Of a stretch of 64,000 nucleotides of DNA, positions 43,163-53,181 are shown piece after piece (the stretch's first letter is position 1; each line of letters begins with the position of its first letter). The translations under genes and the position numbers were made by a program. The notes beneath the pieces were generated by a model. The model was not told the origin of the DNA, ran no database searches, and was given only the letters and a program-made list of their open reading frames with translations. Location: positions 62,001-126,000 of the forward strand of contig NZ_JADVOP010000006.1 of assembly GCF_016508585.1 (NCBI RefSeq), written 5' to 3'. The DNA comes from Acinetobacter baumannii. Lineage in GTDB: Bacteria > Pseudomonadota > Gammaproteobacteria > Pseudomonadales > Moraxellaceae.

Positions 43163-44728
43163 TTATTGACCTGAACGAATAATATAATCAAATGCAGATA
43201 ACGACGCTTTTGCCCCCTCACCCGCAGCGATGATAATTTGTTTATAAGGTACTGTTGTACAGTCGCCTGCAGCAAAAACACCTTTCACATTGGTTTCATT
43301 GCGATCATTCACTACAATTTCATTTCGATTAGAAAGTTCAACAGCGGTTTCTTTTAGGAAATCTGTATTTGGCAATAAACCAATCTGTACGAATATTCCA
43401 GCAAGCTCAATGATGTGAAGCTCATCAGTCGCACGATCTTTATATTTCAAGCCTGTCACGACCGAACCATCACCAATCACCTCTGTAGAAAGTGCATTCA
43501 TGATCACTGTAGTATTTGGCAAGCTATTGAGCTTATCTTGAAGTACTTGGTCAGCACGAAGTTTGGTATCAAACTCAATTAATGTCACATGCTCAACAAT
43601 ACCTGCAAGATCAATCGCGGCTTCCACACCTGAGTTACCACCACCGATTACAGCAACTTTTTTGCCTTTGAACAATGGACCATCACAATGCGGGCAGTAA
43701 GCAACACCACGTGTTTTATACTCTTTCTCGCCTGGTACATTCATTTCTCTCCAACGCGCACCTGTTGATAAGATGACTGTTTTTGATTCAAGTTTTGCAC
43801 CATTTTCCAACTCAACTTCGACCAAGCCATTGACTGTTTGATCTGCACCTACAATGTTTTTAACTTTTTGCAAGTTCATGATGTCGACGCCGTACTCACG
43901 TACATGAGCTTCCATATCAGCACCAAATTTAGGACCTTGGGTTTTCTGAACTGAAATAAAGTTCTCGATATCCATGGTGTCCATGACCTGACCGCCAAAG
44001 CGTTCTGACACAATACCAGTACGAATGCCTTTACGTGCAGCATATACCGCAGACGTTGCACCCGCAGGTCCACCACCGATCACCAATACATCGAATGCAT
44101 CTTTGGCATTGAGTTTCTCAGCATCTTTGGCTGCAGCGCCACTGTCTAGTTTGGCAATGATTTCTTCTAGAGTCATACGACCTTGACCAATATGTTCACC
44201 ATTTTGGAAAACCATCGGTACAGCTAAAATTTTGCGCTCTTCAACTTCATCTTGGAAGAATGCCCCATCGATCATGGTTGCGGTCGTACCAGGGTTGTTA
44301 ATGGCAATCAAGTTCAATGCCTGAACAACATCTGGACAGTTGTGACAACTTAAAGAGACGAATACATCAAAGTCTGCAGTCAGATTTAAGCCTTTGACTT
44401 GTGCCAGAACTTCATCAGAAACTTTGGGCGCATAGCCAGAAACTTGCAACAAAGCCAAGATCAGTGAAGTAAATTCATGCCCCATAGGCAAGCCGGCAAA
44501 GAATACACGTGGCTGCTCACCCACTTTTGCAATACCAAAGCTAGGCTTACGTCCATTTTGACCATCAAAACGTGCTGTCACTTGATCTGAAAGCGCAGCA
44601 ATTTCAGTCACCAACTCTTTAATTTTATCTGACTTCTCAGAGCCATTTAAAGAAGCAATGATTTCGATTGGGCTTTCGAGACGCTCTAACAAAGTTTTTA
44701 ATTGAGCAGAAGTATTTGTATCTAACAT
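43163..44728 (-). CDS. ahpF: Alkyl hydroperoxide reductase subunit F
   Basis: 521 residues from ATG 44728, with GGAG nine bases upstream; a TTG at 44743 is part of that site. Domains: N-terminal tandem thioredoxin folds with active-site SCHNCP (Cys128/Cys131), FAD domain with [19 protein letters not shown], catalytic CPHC (Cys345/Cys348, same numbering as E. coli) and NADH loop [17 protein letters not shown]. It regenerates AhpC from peroxide reduction. No ahpC lies adjacent here, so AhpC must be encoded elsewhere. Confidence 0.96.
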
Positions 44729-45133
44729 GCTAACAATCTCCAAGGGAGTAAATTTATTTCGTTAAATGTATATTACGACTATTTAAAAAATAGATAAAAC
44801 AGTTTGTTTTCATTAAATCAATCGGTTTTTTAGTTTAACAATAATCCGACTCATTTGCATCACATGTTCCCCTGTTTATTCAGTACAAGTATTTAACTGT
44901 ATTGTATATCGGGACATTCACGATAAAATCAATCAATCAGGGCAATTCTTCAAAACTTAAAATTAGATTAATATTCAATAAAAATAATATTTTTGCGACC
45001 ATGTTTCTACAAAAAACTCTGCGCAGAGATTACACAAAGTTTTAAGCTAAATTGATGGTGTCGTTTCTCCTATTAAGTACAACAACGTGTACTTATTCAC
45101 AATTTCCAAATACAGATGTGATGAGGTAAAACA
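44729..45133. other. Divergent promoter region, 405 bp
   Basis: Contains CTAT-N7-ATAG at 44779-44793, which equals the inner half of an OxyR site; outer halves are not conserved. No gene seen. The palindrome at 45074-45095 lies near the right side. Confidence 0.4.
45074..45095. promoter_or_regulatory. Perfect 8-bp-arm palindrome before DsbA-fold gene
   Basis: TAAGTACA-6 bases-TGTACTTA ends 38 bp before the ATG at 45134. Position and symmetry suggest a dimeric repressor site. The regulator is unknown. Confidence 0.5.
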
Positions 45134-45843: not shown

Positions 45844-46761
45844 TTAACTTATCCGATGACCAATCCGCTGTAATCGTTTGCTCATTCGATATGCGATCAA
45901 ATAGATGAATAAGCCTGATAATAAACCCATTGCCCCAATCGCCCATAACAGCTTCTCGACGATATTAGACCAAAAATTTGCTCGATTCACTTGAACTTCA
46001 ACGCCTTTGGCAAGTGGAGACAGCGCTTGGTTAAACACTTGATGCTGAATCGTCCATAACTGTTCTGGTTTAAATCCATATTCTAAGAATTGAGGGTCGC
46101 CTTGCTCTGCTTTGATGAGCTTTTCTGCATAGACTGTTGCAACCACTCGATCTACAGGTTTATGCATTAATGCTGTCTGTGCCAATAAATAGTTTTGTAC
46201 AGGTTCAGGTAATTCAGATTTGCTGAGATATTGGTAAATATTACTGTGTTGAATATTCTGATCATAATGAACAAAAGCTTTCAGCTCTTTGTCACCTTCA
46301 TCTTTTAGATCATATTGTATATAAGTCAAACCTGACCATATCACAATAAAAGCAATTAACCATGCCACACATTTGAGAATAAAAGATTGCAGACGAATCA
46401 AAAAGAATTGCAACTTTTTAAGTAATTTAATGACAAAAAATGCACCAATGAAAGAAATAATCAATTTTAAAATTAACCAACCTAACCAAGAAAACGCGTT
46501 CATCAGATAGTCAGGCTGATAAATTGCGTCTCTTAATTGCTGATCAACCATATAAGGCAGATGCAGTTGATGCACATGTTGAGCAACCCCAAACATGTTA
46601 AAAACCCATTCCTGCTGAAAAAATAATGAAATCAAACCTGCAACACCAACCGCTGACAAAATTACAGCCGCCGCCGTAAGATTCCACTTACGGCGCTGTA
46701 ACATTTTTAATCCATGTTCTATTTGCTGAATATCTACAGCATGTTGATTATTTTCAGTCAA
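45844..46761 (-). CDS. Four-helix membrane protein of TelA operon, unknown
   Basis: 305 residues, not recognised. Predicted helices near 28-48, 88-112, 127-147 and 268-291. Between the third and fourth lies a soluble domain (about 150-265) with YLSKSELPEPVQNYLLAQTALMHKP, which would face one side of the membrane. An N-terminal amphipathic stretch DIQQIEHGLKMLQRRKW precedes helix 1. It is the last gene of a three-gene operon, 47 bp after TelA. It is the probable membrane anchor or channel of that system. Confidence 0.7.
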   Translation of the reverse strand: MTENNQHAVDIQQIEHGLKMLQRRKWNLTAAAVILSAVGVAGLISLFFQQEWVFNMFGVAQHVHQLHLPYMVDQQLRDAIYQPDYLMNAFSWLGWLILKLIISFIGAFFVIKLLKKLQFFLIRLQSFILKCVAWLIAFIVIWSGLTYIQYDLKDEGDKELKAFVHYDQNIQHSNIYQYLSKSELPEPVQNYLLAQTALMHKPVDRVVATVYAEKLIKAEQGDPQFLEYGFKPEQLWTIQHQVFNQALSPLAKGVEVQVNRANFWSNIVEKLLWAIGAMGLLSGLFIYLIAYRMSKRLQRIGHRIS

Positions 46762-46808
46762 GTATTACACCTTTATTCACGACATCAATGAGCACATTTA
46801 AAATTGAT

Positions 46809-47963
46809 TCAAGATTTTTGTGCAGTATTGTCCAAAACCAACTGCTGTAAATTCGACTGCAAAGCTTTAATTCGGGTTGAAGCCTCTTCACGCTTTTGCA
46901 TGCCTTCTTTTTGTATCTGAATCACATCATTCACTGTTTTAATGAGGGTGTTTTGAACATGTTCAAGCGTTTCAATATCAATCACCGAGCGTTGATTGGC
47001 TTTGGCGGTATCTACTGAATTTTGATGTAACAAATCCGCATTGCGTTTTAACAACTCGTTGGTTGCATCATCAATCGTATTGGCAAGTTGTACGCTGTTG
47101 CGTTGTTCATTTAGCGATATCGCTAAGCTAATTTGGTTTTTCCAAGCAGGCAGTGTGATATTTTTAATGGCATAGAATTTATCAACCAACATCATATTAT
47201 TTGACTGAATGATTCGGATCATCGGCAAAGTTTGCATGGCGGACTGTTGCAGAACCTGTAAATCACTGACTCTTTTTTCTAGATTATTGGCTAAATGGTT
47301 GAGATCGTAGACACGCTGATTGATTTTTTGATCTTGTTCTTGCACAGATAAAGTCGCAATCTCTTGTTGTACCTCTTGTTGTTTGATTCGTCCAGCAGCA
47401 ATATAGATACCCAACTGGCGATATTCTTCCTGCACACCATTAAACATGCGATCTAAGGTATCTACACGTGCTTTCAAACCCGTTTGCGAAGTTTCAATTT
47501 CTTTAACCAGTGCGTCAATTTGTTCTTTGGTGGTATTAAAATGTTGGTCAAAACTCTGTTTCGCACCTTTAAACTTATTTAAGAGACTGCCGATAAATCC
47601 TGAACTTTTCGATTGATTCAAAATACTCGATGTATTGAGCTGCTGCGCAACTTGTACGACTTCATTTAACTTTTGCCCCGTCACATCGAGGTCTTTATTT
47701 TTAACCAGATTCAACAATTCATCCGTATAGGACGAAGTTTTAGTTGCAATATTTTTTCCGTACTCTGCAACTGCTGCATGGTTGATATTTGCCAAATCTT
47801 TATGAGCATTGACCACCTCATTAAAATCCTCGGTATTTAAACCGATCTCTTTGAGATTCAATTGTTCAAATTTTTGAATTTCCAATGGAGAGTTTGATTC
47901 TGCTGTCGTTGACGTCATAGAATCCGCTGATGTTTTTAATGGTTGCTGATTCGAATCGCTCAT
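46809..47963 (-). CDS. TelA family protein (toxic anion resistance)
   Basis: 384 residues, mostly coiled coil. Family pieces: VVQVAQQLNTSSILNQ, GFIGSLLNKFKGAKQSFDQHF, YRQLGIYIAAGRIKQQEV, LPMIRIIQSNNMMLVDKFYAIKNITLPAWKNQISLA. TelA proteins are linked to tellurite and other toxic anion or antimicrobial resistance, mechanism unclear. It is the middle gene, between a shorter relative of itself (9 bp upstream) and a membrane protein. Confidence 0.9.
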   Translation of the reverse strand: MSDSNQQPLKTSADSMTSTTAESNSPLEIQKFEQLNLKEIGLNTEDFNEVVNAHKDLANINHAAVAEYGKNIATKTSSYTDELLNLVKNKDLDVTGQKLNEVVQVAQQLNTSSILNQSKSSGFIGSLLNKFKGAKQSFDQHFNTTKEQIDALVKEIETSQTGLKARVDTLDRMFNGVQEEYRQLGIYIAAGRIKQQEVQQEIATLSVQEQDQKINQRVYDLNHLANNLEKRVSDLQVLQQSAMQTLPMIRIIQSNNMMLVDKFYAIKNITLPAWKNQISLAISLNEQRNSVQLANTIDDATNELLKRNADLLHQNSVDTAKANQRSVIDIETLEHVQNTLIKTVNDVIQIQKEGMQKREEASTRIKALQSNLQQLVLDNTAQKS

Positions 47964-47972
47964 AGATCTACC

Positions 47973-48755
47973 CTATTTATTTTCTAATGATTTCTTTAAA
48001 GATTGAATTAATTTATCACGACTTTTATCAAGTTCTTCAGTCGTCACCAAAGAATTTTGTGCACTGCTCTGTCTGACATGATACTGCCATGCAGGAATCA
48101 AAACTTGCTGTGCTTCATTAAAGCGGTCCAACAATGTTAAGGAAAGTTGTTGCGTTAACTGCATCTGAGCCAATGCAATATCATTACTGGCTTGTAAAGT
48201 CTGCAAAGTGTTGATCTTTTTTGACAAACGTTCTGAAAAATTATCCAAGGGATGACGTTGCTGCACAAATACAGGGTATTCATCTAAAAATTCCTGTGCT
48301 GCGCGAATATATTTTGCCATTTGCTCTCTTAAACCATTGGCTTGTTGGAAACGAGATTCTGACTTTTGAATTTCAATTTGCAATCGTTGACTCAGTTGTT
48401 TGGCTTCATCAATTAAACTTTCTAAATCCCGTAAATATTTTACTTGCCCGACGCTAAACTCTAAATCCAAACCTAACCACTTTTGCAAAGCATTAAATTT
48501 TCTTTGGTTCAACTTTGTCTTTGATACAGATAACTGTTCAATAATTTGGGCAATAATTTGACTTAACTTTTGTGTCAAACTCGGATCTATACTTTTTAAC
48601 AGTACGGACTGTGCTTGAATCAATTGATCCGCATACAAATTGAGTCGGGTTTGATTATCCAGCAATGGAACAAGATCATTACGTTTAATTGAAAGCAATT
48701 CATCAGCATTACAAGAAATCTGTTCAAGGGGGGTCAGTACAGTAAATTGTTTCAT
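47973..48755 (-). CDS. Diverged TelA-like coiled-coil protein
   Basis: 260 residues, largely coiled coil. Residues 173-227 align without gaps to TelA residues 224-278 from the next gene: 15 of 55 are identical, including the closing PAW (IPAWQYHV against LPAWKNQI) and the LQ.LQ.S element. So it is a shortened, diverged TelA paralogue rather than an unrelated protein. The TelA N-terminal region is missing. First gene of the operon; its product probably pairs with TelA. Confidence 0.7.
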   Translation of the reverse strand: MKQFTVLTPLEQISCNADELLSIKRNDLVPLLDNQTRLNLYADQLIQAQSVLLKSIDPSLTQKLSQIIAQIIEQLSVSKTKLNQRKFNALQKWLGLDLEFSVGQVKYLRDLESLIDEAKQLSQRLQIEIQKSESRFQQANGLREQMAKYIRAAQEFLDEYPVFVQQRHPLDNFSERLSKKINTLQTLQASNDIALAQMQLTQQLSLTLLDRFNEAQQVLIPAWQYHVRQSSAQNSLVTTEELDKSRDKLIQSLKKSLENK

Positions 48756-48881: not shown

Positions 48882-48910
48882 AAAAACCAGCTTCGAAAAA
48901 CTGGTTTTTA
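48882..48910 (-). terminator. Terminator of CSLREA gene pair
   Basis: AAAAACCAG (48882-48890) pairs with CTGGTTTTT (48901-48909). The A-run on the left is the T-tract for the minus-strand genes. Confidence 0.85.
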
Positions 48911-48923
48911 TACATCTAAATGA

Positions 48924-51362
48924 CTATTTCGCCTGTTTATGCAACTGATAGCGACGATATCCCAGCAATCCGAACAAACCCAATATGCTCAACCATCCAA
49001 ACGCACCACCACCACTGACACGCGGACTGCCTGGTGCAGTGCCTGAGTTTTGCAATTTCACTGTTGCTGAATTCGAAATTTTTCCATCTGCATCATACAC
49101 ATAGTAAGTAAAATTATAACTGAATGGATCAAGCGTACTTCTGAGCTGGATATGCACCTTACCGCTGTAACAGGTATATTTACCGTCATCACCCGGACAC
49201 GGTCCACTACGGTCTGCCGTAATCACCACAGGGTCAATGCTGTTTGCAATTCTAACTGGAAGCTCAATCCCTTCTGGATTGACATAGAATTTTGGTTTAT
49301 TCGGTTTTGCAGTTAAAGCTGCAACATTTCCATCACCATCATCATTGGCATATTGCAGTAAATCAACATCCAATGGTTTGGTTGAACCATATTCGATATT
49401 CAATGTTGCATCTTTAGCGATTGGTGCAATATTGGTAAAACTACCAATGATATAAGCTGAAGATTTTATACTTGGATCTGCAATTAATTGTAGTTGATAG
49501 CTACAGAATTCATTATCACCTGAAGGTGTCACATTATCATTGATACGCCACAGCATGATTCTTTTCAGGTTCGGATTCCATTCACATTTAAAGTTTGGAT
49601 CTTCTTTACCAACGAATACCTTTTTATCATTCAATGTGCCTACGCCAAGCGCTTTAACGGTTACGGTGTAGTTGTCCGTGTTTAGGTGTTTGACTACACG
49701 TGTATCTTGACCATTTGCATTTTTCGTTACGATCTCAGCAGGTAGATTCGCGGCAAAAGGATCAACAAATATGGTCCGATATTTCTGATCAGATTTGGTA
49801 TATTTGATTAAGTTACTATATGTCTCCGATTGAATTTTATAGAACGGAATATAATCTTTATTGGTCGCTGGATCTTCCAGCAACTTATTATAGTTATCCA
49901 GTATGGTTTGATATGACTCCAACATGGTGACGACGGAACTATTGGATGCACTCAGGTTATTCGCTGTTAAACGTAAAACCTCGGTTGATCCCATATCACA
50001 GGAGTTAGCAACATCATTTTCACCATTTGAATTTTCCGCAATGACACGAGTTACACCACGCTGATCTTTACCACTACAGCCTGTATAACCGATATCTACC
50101 AGATCTTTGTCTGTGCCTAAATTCTTAGGAAAATACATCGGCATGAACCCAGTAGATTCACTAGGTGGCTCAAGTTCATTCAAGAGTGTTGAGAAGTTAA
50201 TATTACTGACATCAAAGGTATTGTCCTTGCCATCTTTCCTCACATCTTCTGCCACTTCACACTGATCATTTCCAGCAGACATTGTCAAAGCATTATAGGT
50301 GAGTACAACACCAGATTTTTCAACCTTGGTGACATCACCATCTGCATAACGACAAGACTTTCCAGTATTGTAGGCCAATATATTGTTACTTAATGCTTTT
50401 ATTCCATTAAAGCCATATAACAATGTCGACCATGCACTATTTCTAACAATAGTATTACTGATTAAACTTAAAGCAGAATTGTCACTCAAATTCACCTTTC
50501 CTTGCGGGGTCGTTTGCGTGAATTGAATAATACTGCCTTGATTTGAATTTGCCACATTGTTGGTAATTGTATTGGCGGTAAATGTGACTGAAGGTTGTCC
50601 ACAAAAGCTAAACATACTTAGGCTATTTTCAGATCCATTTCTCAGAAAACTTGCGTAGTTAATTCCGATAGTGCGTGTCGTAAATCCTAAATTATCTGAA
50701 CATGTCATCCCAAGTACACTGCCTTGGTCCGCGTTATTCCCGTCGAAAACACCATAATTGATATTGAGTGAACTGGTCACATCATTTAAATAAATCGCGC
50801 CACCGACTTTCGCCTTGGAATTCAGGACGGTAACATTATTTAAAGTCAGTGCCCCGCCCGCATAAATTGCTCCACCAACACTGTAATTGCTGTCAGTTAA
50901 ACTTGAACCATCTTTTAAAATTAAATCGTTAAGCACCAGACTCGGTTTGTTTTCATAGATGGTATTAAAAATACGCGAACTGCCTTGACCAGAAATTGTG
51001 GTTTTAATTGGCGTTGCAGCCGGAAACTGATTGGTCAACACATCAGGACGGGTATAATCACCTGGTTCTTTCCCAACAATTGATACATCTGAATTAGGTC
51101 TAAGCTCTTTATTTAACTTATACTCTCCTGCTTCCAATTGGATCACGTTAGGCACTGTAGAATAGACTTGTCCTGCACTACAGCCGCCATAAGCTTTGTG
51201 TATAGCAGCAGCATGTAATGCTTCTCTCAAAGAACACTTGTCGGGATTTGTCCCATCTTCATCATCAAAAGTCGTGACATAAATCGTTTTATCTTCTGCC
51301 GCCATTAATGACATCGTCGACAATATAACAACTGTCAGAAATCCTTTTTTATAGTTTTTCAT
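48924..51362 (-). CDS. rbtA: CSLREA-domain surface protein with GlyGly-CTERM (rhombotarget A-like)
   Basis: 812 residues. A signal peptide (MKNYKKGFLTVVILSTMSLMA) leads to a CSLREALHAAA box, the CSLREA domain of parallel beta-helix proteins. A repetitive beta-rich region with GGAIYAGGALTLNNVTVLN follows (about 160-330). The C-terminus reads SGGGAFGWLSILGLFGLLGYRR, the Gly-rich, membrane, Arg pattern of GlyGly-CTERM, cleaved by a rhombosortase in proteins that pass through type II secretion. It is the second of two tandem genes, 10 bp after its relative. The symbol follows recollection of the Acinetobacter 'rhombotarget A' name. Ligand or role is unknown. Confidence 0.78.
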   Translation of the reverse strand: MKNYKKGFLTVVILSTMSLMAAEDKTIYVTTFDDEDGTNPDKCSLREALHAAAIHKAYGGCSAGQVYSTVPNVIQLEAGEYKLNKELRPNSDVSIVGKEPGDYTRPDVLTNQFPAATPIKTTISGQGSSRIFNTIYENKPSLVLNDLILKDGSSLTDSNYSVGGAIYAGGALTLNNVTVLNSKAKVGGAIYLNDVTSSLNINYGVFDGNNADQGSVLGMTCSDNLGFTTRTIGINYASFLRNGSENSLSMFSFCGQPSVTFTANTITNNVANSNQGSIIQFTQTTPQGKVNLSDNSALSLISNTIVRNSAWSTLLYGFNGIKALSNNILAYNTGKSCRYADGDVTKVEKSGVVLTYNALTMSAGNDQCEVAEDVRKDGKDNTFDVSNINFSTLLNELEPPSESTGFMPMYFPKNLGTDKDLVDIGYTGCSGKDQRGVTRVIAENSNGENDVANSCDMGSTEVLRLTANNLSASNSSVVTMLESYQTILDNYNKLLEDPATNKDYIPFYKIQSETYSNLIKYTKSDQKYRTIFVDPFAANLPAEIVTKNANGQDTRVVKHLNTDNYTVTVKALGVGTLNDKKVFVGKEDPNFKCEWNPNLKRIMLWRINDNVTPSGDNEFCSYQLQLIADPSIKSSAYIIGSFTNIAPIAKDATLNIEYGSTKPLDVDLLQYANDDGDGNVAALTAKPNKPKFYVNPEGIELPVRIANSIDPVVITADRSGPCPGDDGKYTCYSGKVHIQLRSTLDPFSYNFTYYVYDADGKISNSATVKLQNSGTAPGSPRVSGGGAFGWLSILGLFGLLGYRRYQLHKQAK

Positions 51363-51372
51363 AGCAAATCCC

Positions 51373-53181
51373 TTACTTATTCTTTAAACGTCGATAGCCT
51401 GCTAATCCGAGAAGACCTACGATAGAGAAGAACCCAAGACTTCCGCCCGATGTTTTGACTTTATAATCCTTAAAATCATCAGGTTTTCTCTGTACAACTC
51501 GTGCAGGTATAGTGATATAAGGGTTATCTGATTTATTAAAACTTGTTGTGGATGTCACAACACTAATTTTAAATTCATCTGAACCTTGCCAGTTCCCATT
51601 TGGGGTATAGACCAAATCACCTGCTTGATCAATCACTAAGCTACCCTTAGACGGGGTATTGGTTTGAACTGTTTTGAGGCATCCGATTTGCCATGGTTTG
51701 CCATTGTCATCAACATCTCGATTGAAAATCTGTTTACATTTTTCTGGGCTAACCAACTCGCCATCCTGCAACTGATCGGCAATCGAAAACTTAGCTTTTT
51801 CACCATAAAGAATGTCTTGTCCAACAATTGAAATATTACTCGTGTCAATCACCAGCTCAATTGAACCGCGATCACATAATTCAGCATTTATATCTCTATT
51901 CTTGCCACGTTGATCAGTTGTTGAGCATGACAATATTTTATCTTGTACAGCAGGTCCATGATTAATAATCAACGAATCTTCTGCCGAATTGTAACTTGGT
52001 AAAATTCTCGGTAAGAAATATCCCAAGGCGATCTTAGAAGACTCTGCAAAAGGACATAAAATACCATTGGTACTATAGTCACATTTACCTTCAGTCGTTG
52101 AGCCAGCAATCAATTGAGCATTACCCAGTGCAGTAGATTTAAACCCAGTACAGCCTGATGAATATAGGTTATTACTGATCTGTTCAGCTTCTCCCCCTGC
52201 CACCACAGTACAATCTTGTGCGCCATTTTGCGCAATAATACTATTGGCAACATAACCTTTTTTCTGCGGTGCGTTCACAATCAAGCCCATGCTGTTTAAA
52301 ATCATGGTGATATTGTTGACCTGCATCGCATCATAGATTTTAACCACATAACCTTTATTGTTAAAAATGGTACTGGTTACAATTCCAAACGGAATGGAGG
52401 AACCTATTGCTTTTAATGCATCTTCAGAGAATTGATTTTGTGTTTCAAAATTTGAACTGTTACTGTTGCTTGTTTCATTGTCTCGAATCAATGATTGAGA
52501 AATGATAAATGACGGCAATTCGGTATAAATGACACCGCCCTCTACTGCCTTATTGCCTTTCATTAAAGTTTTTGACAATGACACAGAACTGAGCGAGGTA
52601 TTTGCAGCATATATACCTGCATTATAAATTGCACCACCTTGTCGTGCAGAACCGTCTAACAGTTGCCCATTGCTGATACCCAGTGATTCTTTGTTATAAA
52701 TCAAACCACCTTGATCCGCACAAATCGACTGTCCACATCCTTTTAATGTAATTTCATCAAAAGAAACTTTCAGCATCGCAGGAGGAGTGGTTGCGTTTGG
52801 GTCATTTGCTTTTTCGATTTGAAACAAACGGTCTTTACCCACCATTTTAATGATGGCATTTCGTTTACCAACAATCGACTCATTATCATTGACATTGGTT
52901 TGATAGTCAGAACCAAATGCCACATCTTTTAAAATATGAATTTGCTTTGTCAGTGAATATTCTTTATTTGCCTGCAACATGATTTTTGCTGTTGCATCTT
53001 TACCACCGCATCCGTTATAGCCAGCTTCAGGCATGCCCTGATTGACGTATTCAACTGCTTCCCTTAATGAACACTGGTCATCAGCTTTTACAATATCATC
53101 TGTTGTTGTTACAGTAATATTTGCACTGAATGCATGACCAGTAATACATAATAATCCTAAGCCTATGCCCCGTTTGAGCAT
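51373..53181 (-). CDS. CSLREA-domain protein with GlyGly-CTERM
   Basis: 602 residues. Signal peptide (MLKRGIGLGLLCITGHAFSA), CSLREAVEYVNQG box, cysteine pairs (GCGQSICADQGG) and beta-helix-like repeats (GGLIYN, GGAIYN). It closes with SGGSLGFFSIVGLLGLAGYRR, a GlyGly-CTERM. Same layout as the 812-residue neighbour, so the pair arose by duplication and diverged. It is first in the two-gene operon. No rhombosortase gene is present in the window. Likely surface-exposed. Confidence 0.75.
   Translation of the reverse strand: MLKRGIGLGLLCITGHAFSANITVTTTDDIVKADDQCSLREAVEYVNQGMPEAGYNGCGGKDATAKIMLQANKEYSLTKQIHILKDVAFGSDYQTNVNDNESIVGKRNAIIKMVGKDRLFQIEKANDPNATTPPAMLKVSFDEITLKGCGQSICADQGGLIYNKESLGISNGQLLDGSARQGGAIYNAGIYAANTSLSSVSLSKTLMKGNKAVEGGVIYTELPSFIISQSLIRDNETSNSNSSNFETQNQFSEDALKAIGSSIPFGIVTSTIFNNKGYVVKIYDAMQVNNITMILNSMGLIVNAPQKKGYVANSIIAQNGAQDCTVVAGGEAEQISNNLYSSGCTGFKSTALGNAQLIAGSTTEGKCDYSTNGILCPFAESSKIALGYFLPRILPSYNSAEDSLIINHGPAVQDKILSCSTTDQRGKNRDINAELCDRGSIELVIDTSNISIVGQDILYGEKAKFSIADQLQDGELVSPEKCKQIFNRDVDDNGKPWQIGCLKTVQTNTPSKGSLVIDQAGDLVYTPNGNWQGSDEFKISVVTSTTSFNKSDNPYITIPARVVQRKPDDFKDYKVKTSGGSLGFFSIVGLLGLAGYRRLKNK

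Follow-up and report, generated by a model that had tools for sequence, protein, structure and literature searches.

What kind of operon is formed by a telA gene that is preceded by a diverged relative of itself and followed by a gene for a membrane protein? The question is raised by a 64,000-nucleotide stretch of Acinetobacter baumannii DNA (contig NZ_JADVOP010000006.1, positions 62,001 to 126,000; hereafter the window). A preliminary description, made from the sequence alone, had suggested that three adjacent genes in the window may encode an undescribed system of two TelA-type proteins and a membrane protein. The genes are as follows:

47973..48755, minus strand: klaA homologue, 260 residues, ATG start, a soluble helical protein and diverged TelA paralogue
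46809..47963, minus strand: klaB/telA homologue, a TelA protein of 384 residues, ATG start
45844..46761, minus strand: klaC (telB) homologue, a 305-residue membrane protein with four hydrophobic segments, TTG start

The coordinates and the spacers (9 bp between klaA and klaB, 47964-47972; 47 bp between klaB and klaC, 46762-46808) were exact on rechecking. Together they make up a kilA-type klaA-klaB-klaC operon on the chromosome. The pairing of the TelA paralogues is genuine, and the three genes form one conserved operon, with the same order on one strand in 81 out of 81 loci (the window plus the best 80 of 103 relatives, chosen by their klaA). The system, however, is not new: each gene matches its counterpart in klaA-klaB-klaC, which IncP plasmids carry as their kilA operon and in which the gene order is identical. 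This identification follows from three family matches, the order and strand shared with the plasmids, and the matching topology of KlaC. KlaA is very likely a shortened, diverged TelA paralogue, KlaB is TelA, and KlaC is a four-helix inner-membrane protein. As an overall explanation, a chromosomal kilA-type klaABC operon acting by the mechanism proposed below is probable.

Relationship to the plasmid kilA operon

The RP4-like plasmid PB5 carries klaA (257 residues), klaB, and klaC in this order, with klaB and klaC 100% identical to reference resistance genes. The RP4 stretch contains klaA and klaB and breaks off, at the start of the record, before klaC is complete. Eight more plasmid loci (an IncHI2A locus of C. 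braakii, pJJ1886_4, pMNCG080, two from Aeromonas, and one each from P. luteola, P. aeruginosa PA83, and Xanthomonas) are arranged like PB5, with a third gene after klaA and klaB; being on plasmids, they differ from the Acinetobacter copy. The nine third-gene proteins (PB5 and the eight others) were picked by position and then checked against each other; they form one family, each matching the other eight at an E value of 1.3e-10 or better. For comparison, we built Acinetobacter profiles from 45 (KlaA), 46 (KlaB), and 27 (KlaC) sequences, leaving out loci L002, L005, and L063 and identical sequences. The KlaC set is smaller because many loci fall short of klaC.

The likeness to the kilA operon of RK2/RP4 (klaA-klaB-telB) extends to three homologous genes, their order, strand, and tight spacing, and the succession of two soluble proteins and a four-helix membrane protein. 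Unlike that operon, the Acinetobacter one is chromosomal, lies beside ahpF, and stands outside a kle/kor/inc gene context. Its KlaC also lacks the TrbC-like stretch of PB5 KlaC (no TrbC match up to an E value of 10).

The 384-residue protein is the sole PF05816 match in its genome (E = 6.3e-83) and is 45.2% identical to KlaB of PB5. Acinetobacter and plasmid KlaB family profiles matched at an E value of 9.4e-96. A search of solved structures with the TelA profile gave no match below an E value of 0.41.

The Acinetobacter and plasmid KlaA families also matched each other in hhalign (probability, 99.6; E = 7.1e-25; 240 columns), with a score of 169 compared to a shuffled maximum of 19.9. With the 260-residue protein alone, tblastn (E limit of 10) retrieved 354 plasmid records, including RP4 and KlaA-named ones (28% identity; E = 2e-12). 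Seven aligned plasmid KlaA proteins other than that of PB5 are 21 to 30% identical to Acinetobacter KlaA.

The kinship of KlaA to TelA had been put forward on the basis of an ungapped alignment of residues 173-227 on TelA residues 224-278, and we counted exactly 15 identities in these 55 positions. It is above chance and extends far past those residues. The single 260-residue sequence matched the TelA of its own genome at an E value of 1.1e-4, and a 13-row profile matched it at 1e-14. When Acinetobacter and plasmid members were combined, the KlaA and TelA families matched over 226 columns (hhalign probability, 95.6; E = 1.2e-8); the score of 67.4 compares to a maximum of 21.0 over 30 column shuffles and to 19.3 for the reversed control. 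KlaA of PB5 passes PF05816 on its own (41 bits versus a cutoff of 30). The gap between KlaA and TelA is partly bridged by proteins from other Moraxellaceae genera (L169 to L171), which score with both families: the KlaA-type profile matched them at E values of 9e-9 to 2e-15 and the KlaB profile at 1e-17 to 3e-23. Two of the three were tested against PF05816 and scored 69 and 66 bits.

Structures were predicted from alignments of 30 (KlaA) and 29 (KlaC, with L097 dropped) of the 80 relative loci plus the window. KlaA is predicted to be entirely helical and to include two helices some 60 residues long (102-163 and 173-231); the mean predicted local distance difference test (pLDDT) score is 75. 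In VIA, this model matched ClyA and AhlC with a Z score of 10.4, level with designed bundles and vinculin (Z scores of 10 to 11.2). Given this tie between ClyA-type proteins, vinculin heads, and designed bundles, we claim no fold relative for KlaA. The KlaA profile found four chains among solved structures (designed or coiled-coil proteins and syntaxin), the best at an E value of 0.006.

KlaC is diverged in sequence and called for profiles: tblastn of the single 305-residue sequence against plasmids returned no KlaC and nothing relevant. As a family, however, the Acinetobacter proteins matched the nine plasmid third-gene proteins over 239 columns (hhalign probability, 97.5; E = 5e-12). The score of 90.6 compares to a shuffled maximum of 18.9 and to 21.1 or less for reversed controls, and unrelated family pairs in the same comparison gave E values of 0.19 to 0.56. 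The Acinetobacter profile also matched single proteins, namely, PB5 KlaC (E = 6.6e-6) and the Xanthomonas protein (E = 9.4e-6), whereas reversed copies of single plasmid KlaC proteins gave E values of 0.13 or worse. The hydrophobic segments (30-48, 96-114, 127-145, and 271-289) lie within 6 residues of those of PB5 KlaC (29-47, 102-120, 130-148, and 276-294), and older papers reportedly gave KlaC four predicted membrane spans. The charge pattern favors an N-in/C-in topology. In the predicted fold (mean pLDDT, 81), there are four long helices, and helices 3 and 4 are separated by a helical domain of some 90 residues.

The TrbC-like stretch of PB5 KlaC (L003:5820-6770) spans residues 79-155 and matches TrbC/VirB2 pilins (PF04956, 33.4 bits with a cutoff of 27.9; NF010467, E = 2e-15). 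A tblastn search with PB5 KlaC matched 443 plasmid records, just 13 of them over at least 80% of the KlaC length, and most of the 60 rows listed were of the TrbC type. The stretch may inflate the published count of klaC plasmids, given as 52, of which 7 have klaA and klaB (PMC5696584). A second KlaC-like frame lies directly 3' of klaC in the Aeromonas media plasmid pAeme5 (L067:6711-7679; KlaC profile E = 5e-28).

Distribution within and beyond Acinetobacter

We found klaA, telA (over the cutoff), and klaC each in 79 out of 99 Acinetobacter genomes, the same 79 in every case. The other 20 genomes, which lack klaA and klaC, also had no TelA over the cutoff. In 78 of the 79 carriers, klaA and klaC are adjacent on one strand, 1155 to 2419 bp apart; the exception (G031) is split between contigs. 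The three genes are thus retained or lost together, which fits one machine, and their chromosomal spread through the genus argues against a recent capture. The best 80 relatives are all titled Acinetobacter (four of them are titled chromosomes), the closest named one by klaA being Acinetobacter guillouiae (92%). The A. baylyi type strain carries klaABC as well (L129).

A family-level search with klaA matched 51 out of 199 genomes, 46 from Acinetobacter and 5 from other genera. Four of these five were read (L168 to L171, not G495): L169 to L171 contain TelA pairs, and in L168 a 161-residue klaA-like frame precedes TelA and a gene for a two-helix protein. Three of 369 genomes matched in the class sample; one was the window's own genome, and the other two matches were TelA-length frames matching the KlaB profile. 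The phylum sample gave 12 matches in 398 genomes. Besides the window's own genome and among the matches read, a true klaA was present in G773 only (E = 1e-119; 271-residue open frame), followed by TelA and a KlaC on a plasmid-sized contig of 53,106 bases. The other ten phylum matches were frames of at least 387 residues, and the eight that were read (G639 and G645 were not) matched the KlaB profile at an E value of 1.1e-51 or better. Within these samples, Acinetobacter has the trio on the chromosome; elsewhere, it was seen on plasmids or a plasmid-sized contig only.

Other arrangements of TelA occur. In L169 to L171, a diverged TelA paralogue of 339 to 370 residues lies directly 5' of TelA, like klaA and klaB, with no adjoining KlaC-like protein at an E value of 1e-4 and with a TerD gene next in L170 and L171. 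These loci represent a second kind of paired-TelA arrangement. Three TelA loci on Acinetobacter plasmids were read: in L005 and L172, TelA is accompanied by neither klaA nor klaC, and L173 (A. indicus pB18-1) has a klaA-like frame and no KlaC at an E value of 1e-4. The row in L173, also seen in L063 (G038:C2) with the same lengths and scores, consists of a klaA-like 303-residue frame, a 281-residue frame, TelA (419 residues), and a two-helix protein. In Firmicutes and others, TelA (YaaN) adjoins XpaC, an arrangement already published as one operon and linked to envelope stress (PMC3498285 and PMC12791056). XpaC (PF10112) is a different family from the 305-residue protein, for which an identity as XpaC was ruled out (no PF10112 match up to an E value of 10). 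We saw XpaC-TelA neighbors in L152 and L158.

What is new here is the distribution of klaABC in Acinetobacter; the operon type and the homology of KlaA and KlaB were already known. That homology had been established by profile comparison (PMC5696584), and klaA and klaB had been named in an Acinetobacter genome (PMC5146438 and PMC6595428). In the open-licence PMC literature, we found no report of the genus-wide, all-or-none chromosomal distribution.

Flanking genes and the upstream region

Two features flank the operon in the window:

43163..44743, minus strand: ahpF (TIGR03140, 751 bits), part of the context and outside the operon
48882..48909, minus strand: terminator-like hairpin, a 12-pair stem followed by a T run, which sets the upstream gene apart from klaA

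Downstream, ahpF lies 3' of klaC on the same strand in 62 out of 81 loci. The interval between the klaC end and the open frame of ahpF ranges from -9 to 541 bp in 53 loci. In the other nine, including the window, it is 1016 to 1783 bp, with a DsbA-like gene on the opposite strand between klaC and ahpF. In the 19 loci that lack ahpF, the sequence available beyond klaC amounts to 412 bp or less (13 loci), 1.26 kb (one locus), or more than 2.3 kb (five loci). The 13 short ones (L078, L083, L087, L093, L096, L117, L121, L123, L125, L133, L135, L141, and L143) end at contig ends 78 to 412 bp after klaC. So many contig ends at this place suggest a repeat just 3' of klaC in several species. An rRNA beside klaC was considered as their cause, and no Rfam match was found in six loci, none of them among the 13 that end there.

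Upstream, a pair of RbtA-type genes lies 5' of klaA in 12 out of 81 loci, a set in which some loci are cut short. In the window, these are a rhombotarget A gene (51373-53181; TIGR04212, 709 bits) and, directly upstream of klaA, a gene whose product is RbtA-like but diverged (48924-51362), scoring 57 bits. The products of the two genes each have CSLREA and GlyGly-CTERM matches. Stretches similar to the hairpin were present in several of 10 aligned upstream regions. Since the presence of ahpF, the DsbA-like gene, and the RbtA-type genes varies, and since the hairpin parts the RbtA-type pair from klaA, these neighbors are outside the conserved klaABC unit. A search for a shared upstream motif returned T/A-rich stretches only, among close relatives.

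Possible roles of the operon

Several results weigh against the overall explanation or are weak points in the kinship of KlaA to TelA. Compared with TelA, the Acinetobacter KlaA proteins alone gave a weaker match (hhalign probability, 49.6; E = 1.7e-4; score, 38.5; shuffled maximum, 26.6). The 260-residue protein has no PF05816 match up to an E value of 10 and no match near the cutoff in Pfam or NCBIfam. Foldseek searches with the KlaA and KlaC models, both helical, gave no match at an E value of 0.001 or less, and no fold search rose above the background of helical proteins. The 305-residue protein is only 13 to 16% identical to plasmid KlaC proteins, five of which singly match the Acinetobacter profile weakly (E = 2e-4 to 1e-2), and those of P. 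luteola (E = 0.11) and C. braakii (E = 0.09) do not match it. For an operon promoter, we counted 13 promoter-like sites compared to 17.1 expected from shuffles, and no regulator was seen. The kil-kor regulon setting is missing as well, in that the neighbors examined (RbtA-like genes, a DsbA-like gene, and ahpF) include no kor gene; the rest of the genome was not searched for kor.

Some of these results would fit an independent origin of the operon, by a lineage-specific duplication of TelA beside an unrelated membrane protein: two of the nine plasmid third-gene proteins are unmatched singly, and single-sequence comparison places KlaA and KlaC far from the plasmid proteins (28% identity and no match, respectively). 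We regard such an origin as highly improbable. Acinetobacter KlaA matches plasmid KlaA (E = 7e-25) far better than it matches the TelA of its own genus (E = 1.7e-4), and KlaC matches its plasmid counterpart by profile and topology. Because the single-protein matches are uneven, the orthology of the 305-residue protein and KlaC depends on the match of the family profiles, on topology, and on gene position.

For the kilA-type operon, we propose a mechanism that is tentative and, in our estimate, somewhat short of an even chance. KlaA and KlaB are related proteins that lack membrane segments and contain many long helices, and they may form a mixed coiled-coil assembly in the cytosol. This assembly would dock, from the cytosol, on KlaC in the inner membrane; KlaC would be placed N-in/C-in, with the roughly 90-residue helical domain that separates helices 3 and 4 exposed on the outer face. 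We infer a complex of all three proteins. The assembly could alter or guard the inner membrane: balanced expression would make the cell tolerant of envelope insults or let it interfere with foreign conjugation, and too much klaABC expression would be toxic. According to the 1991 kilA paper, the plasmid operon is reportedly host-lethal on overexpression, with each gene being needed. On this view, resistance to tellurite would arise incidentally when expression is high or altered; older papers are said to describe the wild-type tellurite phenotype as cryptic. In the published record, TelA of Listeria and Bacillus, beside XpaC, has been connected with agents that act on the envelope and with the sigma-W regulon (PMC12791056 and PMC3498285), and the plasmid kilA operon shows strong zygotic induction and is counted among the operons that serve stable inheritance (PMC7314908).

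Could the normal job of klaABC be tellurite resistance itself? The genes kilA/klaA-klaB-telB are counted among tellurite determinants (PMC5437285 and PMC12348037), and klaB and klaC of PB5 are listed as predicted tellurium resistance genes. Still, Acinetobacter strain 5-2Ac02, which has a full-length klaABC operon (L104) and ter genes and for which klaA and klaB had been reported, had a tellurite MIC (minimum inhibitory concentration) of 2 ug/mL and was classed as susceptible, although this is one strain (PMC6595428). Tellurite resistance is therefore probably not the everyday role of klaABC, and we judge a dedicated chromosomal resistance operon to be distinctly unlikely. A part in the peroxide or redox response together with ahpF, suggested by the position of that gene in 62 of the 81 loci, is very unlikely: the distance between klaC and ahpF is variable and can include the DsbA-like insert, five loci with more than 2.3 kb of downstream sequence have no ahpF, and none is listed in the plasmid loci within the stretches read.

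A role in plasmid interference, acting on incoming conjugative plasmids or on outgoing transfer as FiwB of RP4 does with IncW, is rather unlikely. The FiwB phenotype (inhibition of IncW transfer) requires KlaA, KlaB, and KlaC (PMC5696584). Of the 354 plasmid records matched by KlaA, 330 were typed as conjugative, and PB5 KlaC bears the TrbC/VirB2-like stretch. That stretch is absent from Acinetobacter KlaC, however, and the genus-wide chromosomal copy (79 out of 99 genomes) is no recent capture.

Since 1991, plasmids have been the main source of knowledge on the kilA operon, and the literature connects it there with tellurite resistance, inhibition of IncW transfer, and plasmid maintenance. 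A broader possibility, which we put forward as speculative and doubtful, is that klaABC is an old chromosomal system of Acinetobacter, retained or lost as one unit: the TelA-type coiled-coil pair would act on KlaC, protecting the inner membrane or interfering with foreign conjugation, and broad-host-range plasmids would carry a diverged "kil" copy. If true, paired TelA paralogues would be a general theme, found also in other Moraxellaceae beside TerD genes. The genus-wide chromosomal klaABC offers a natural setting in which simple deletion mutants can be used to test the normal role of the operon, and A. baylyi ADP1 is a readily transformed laboratory strain.

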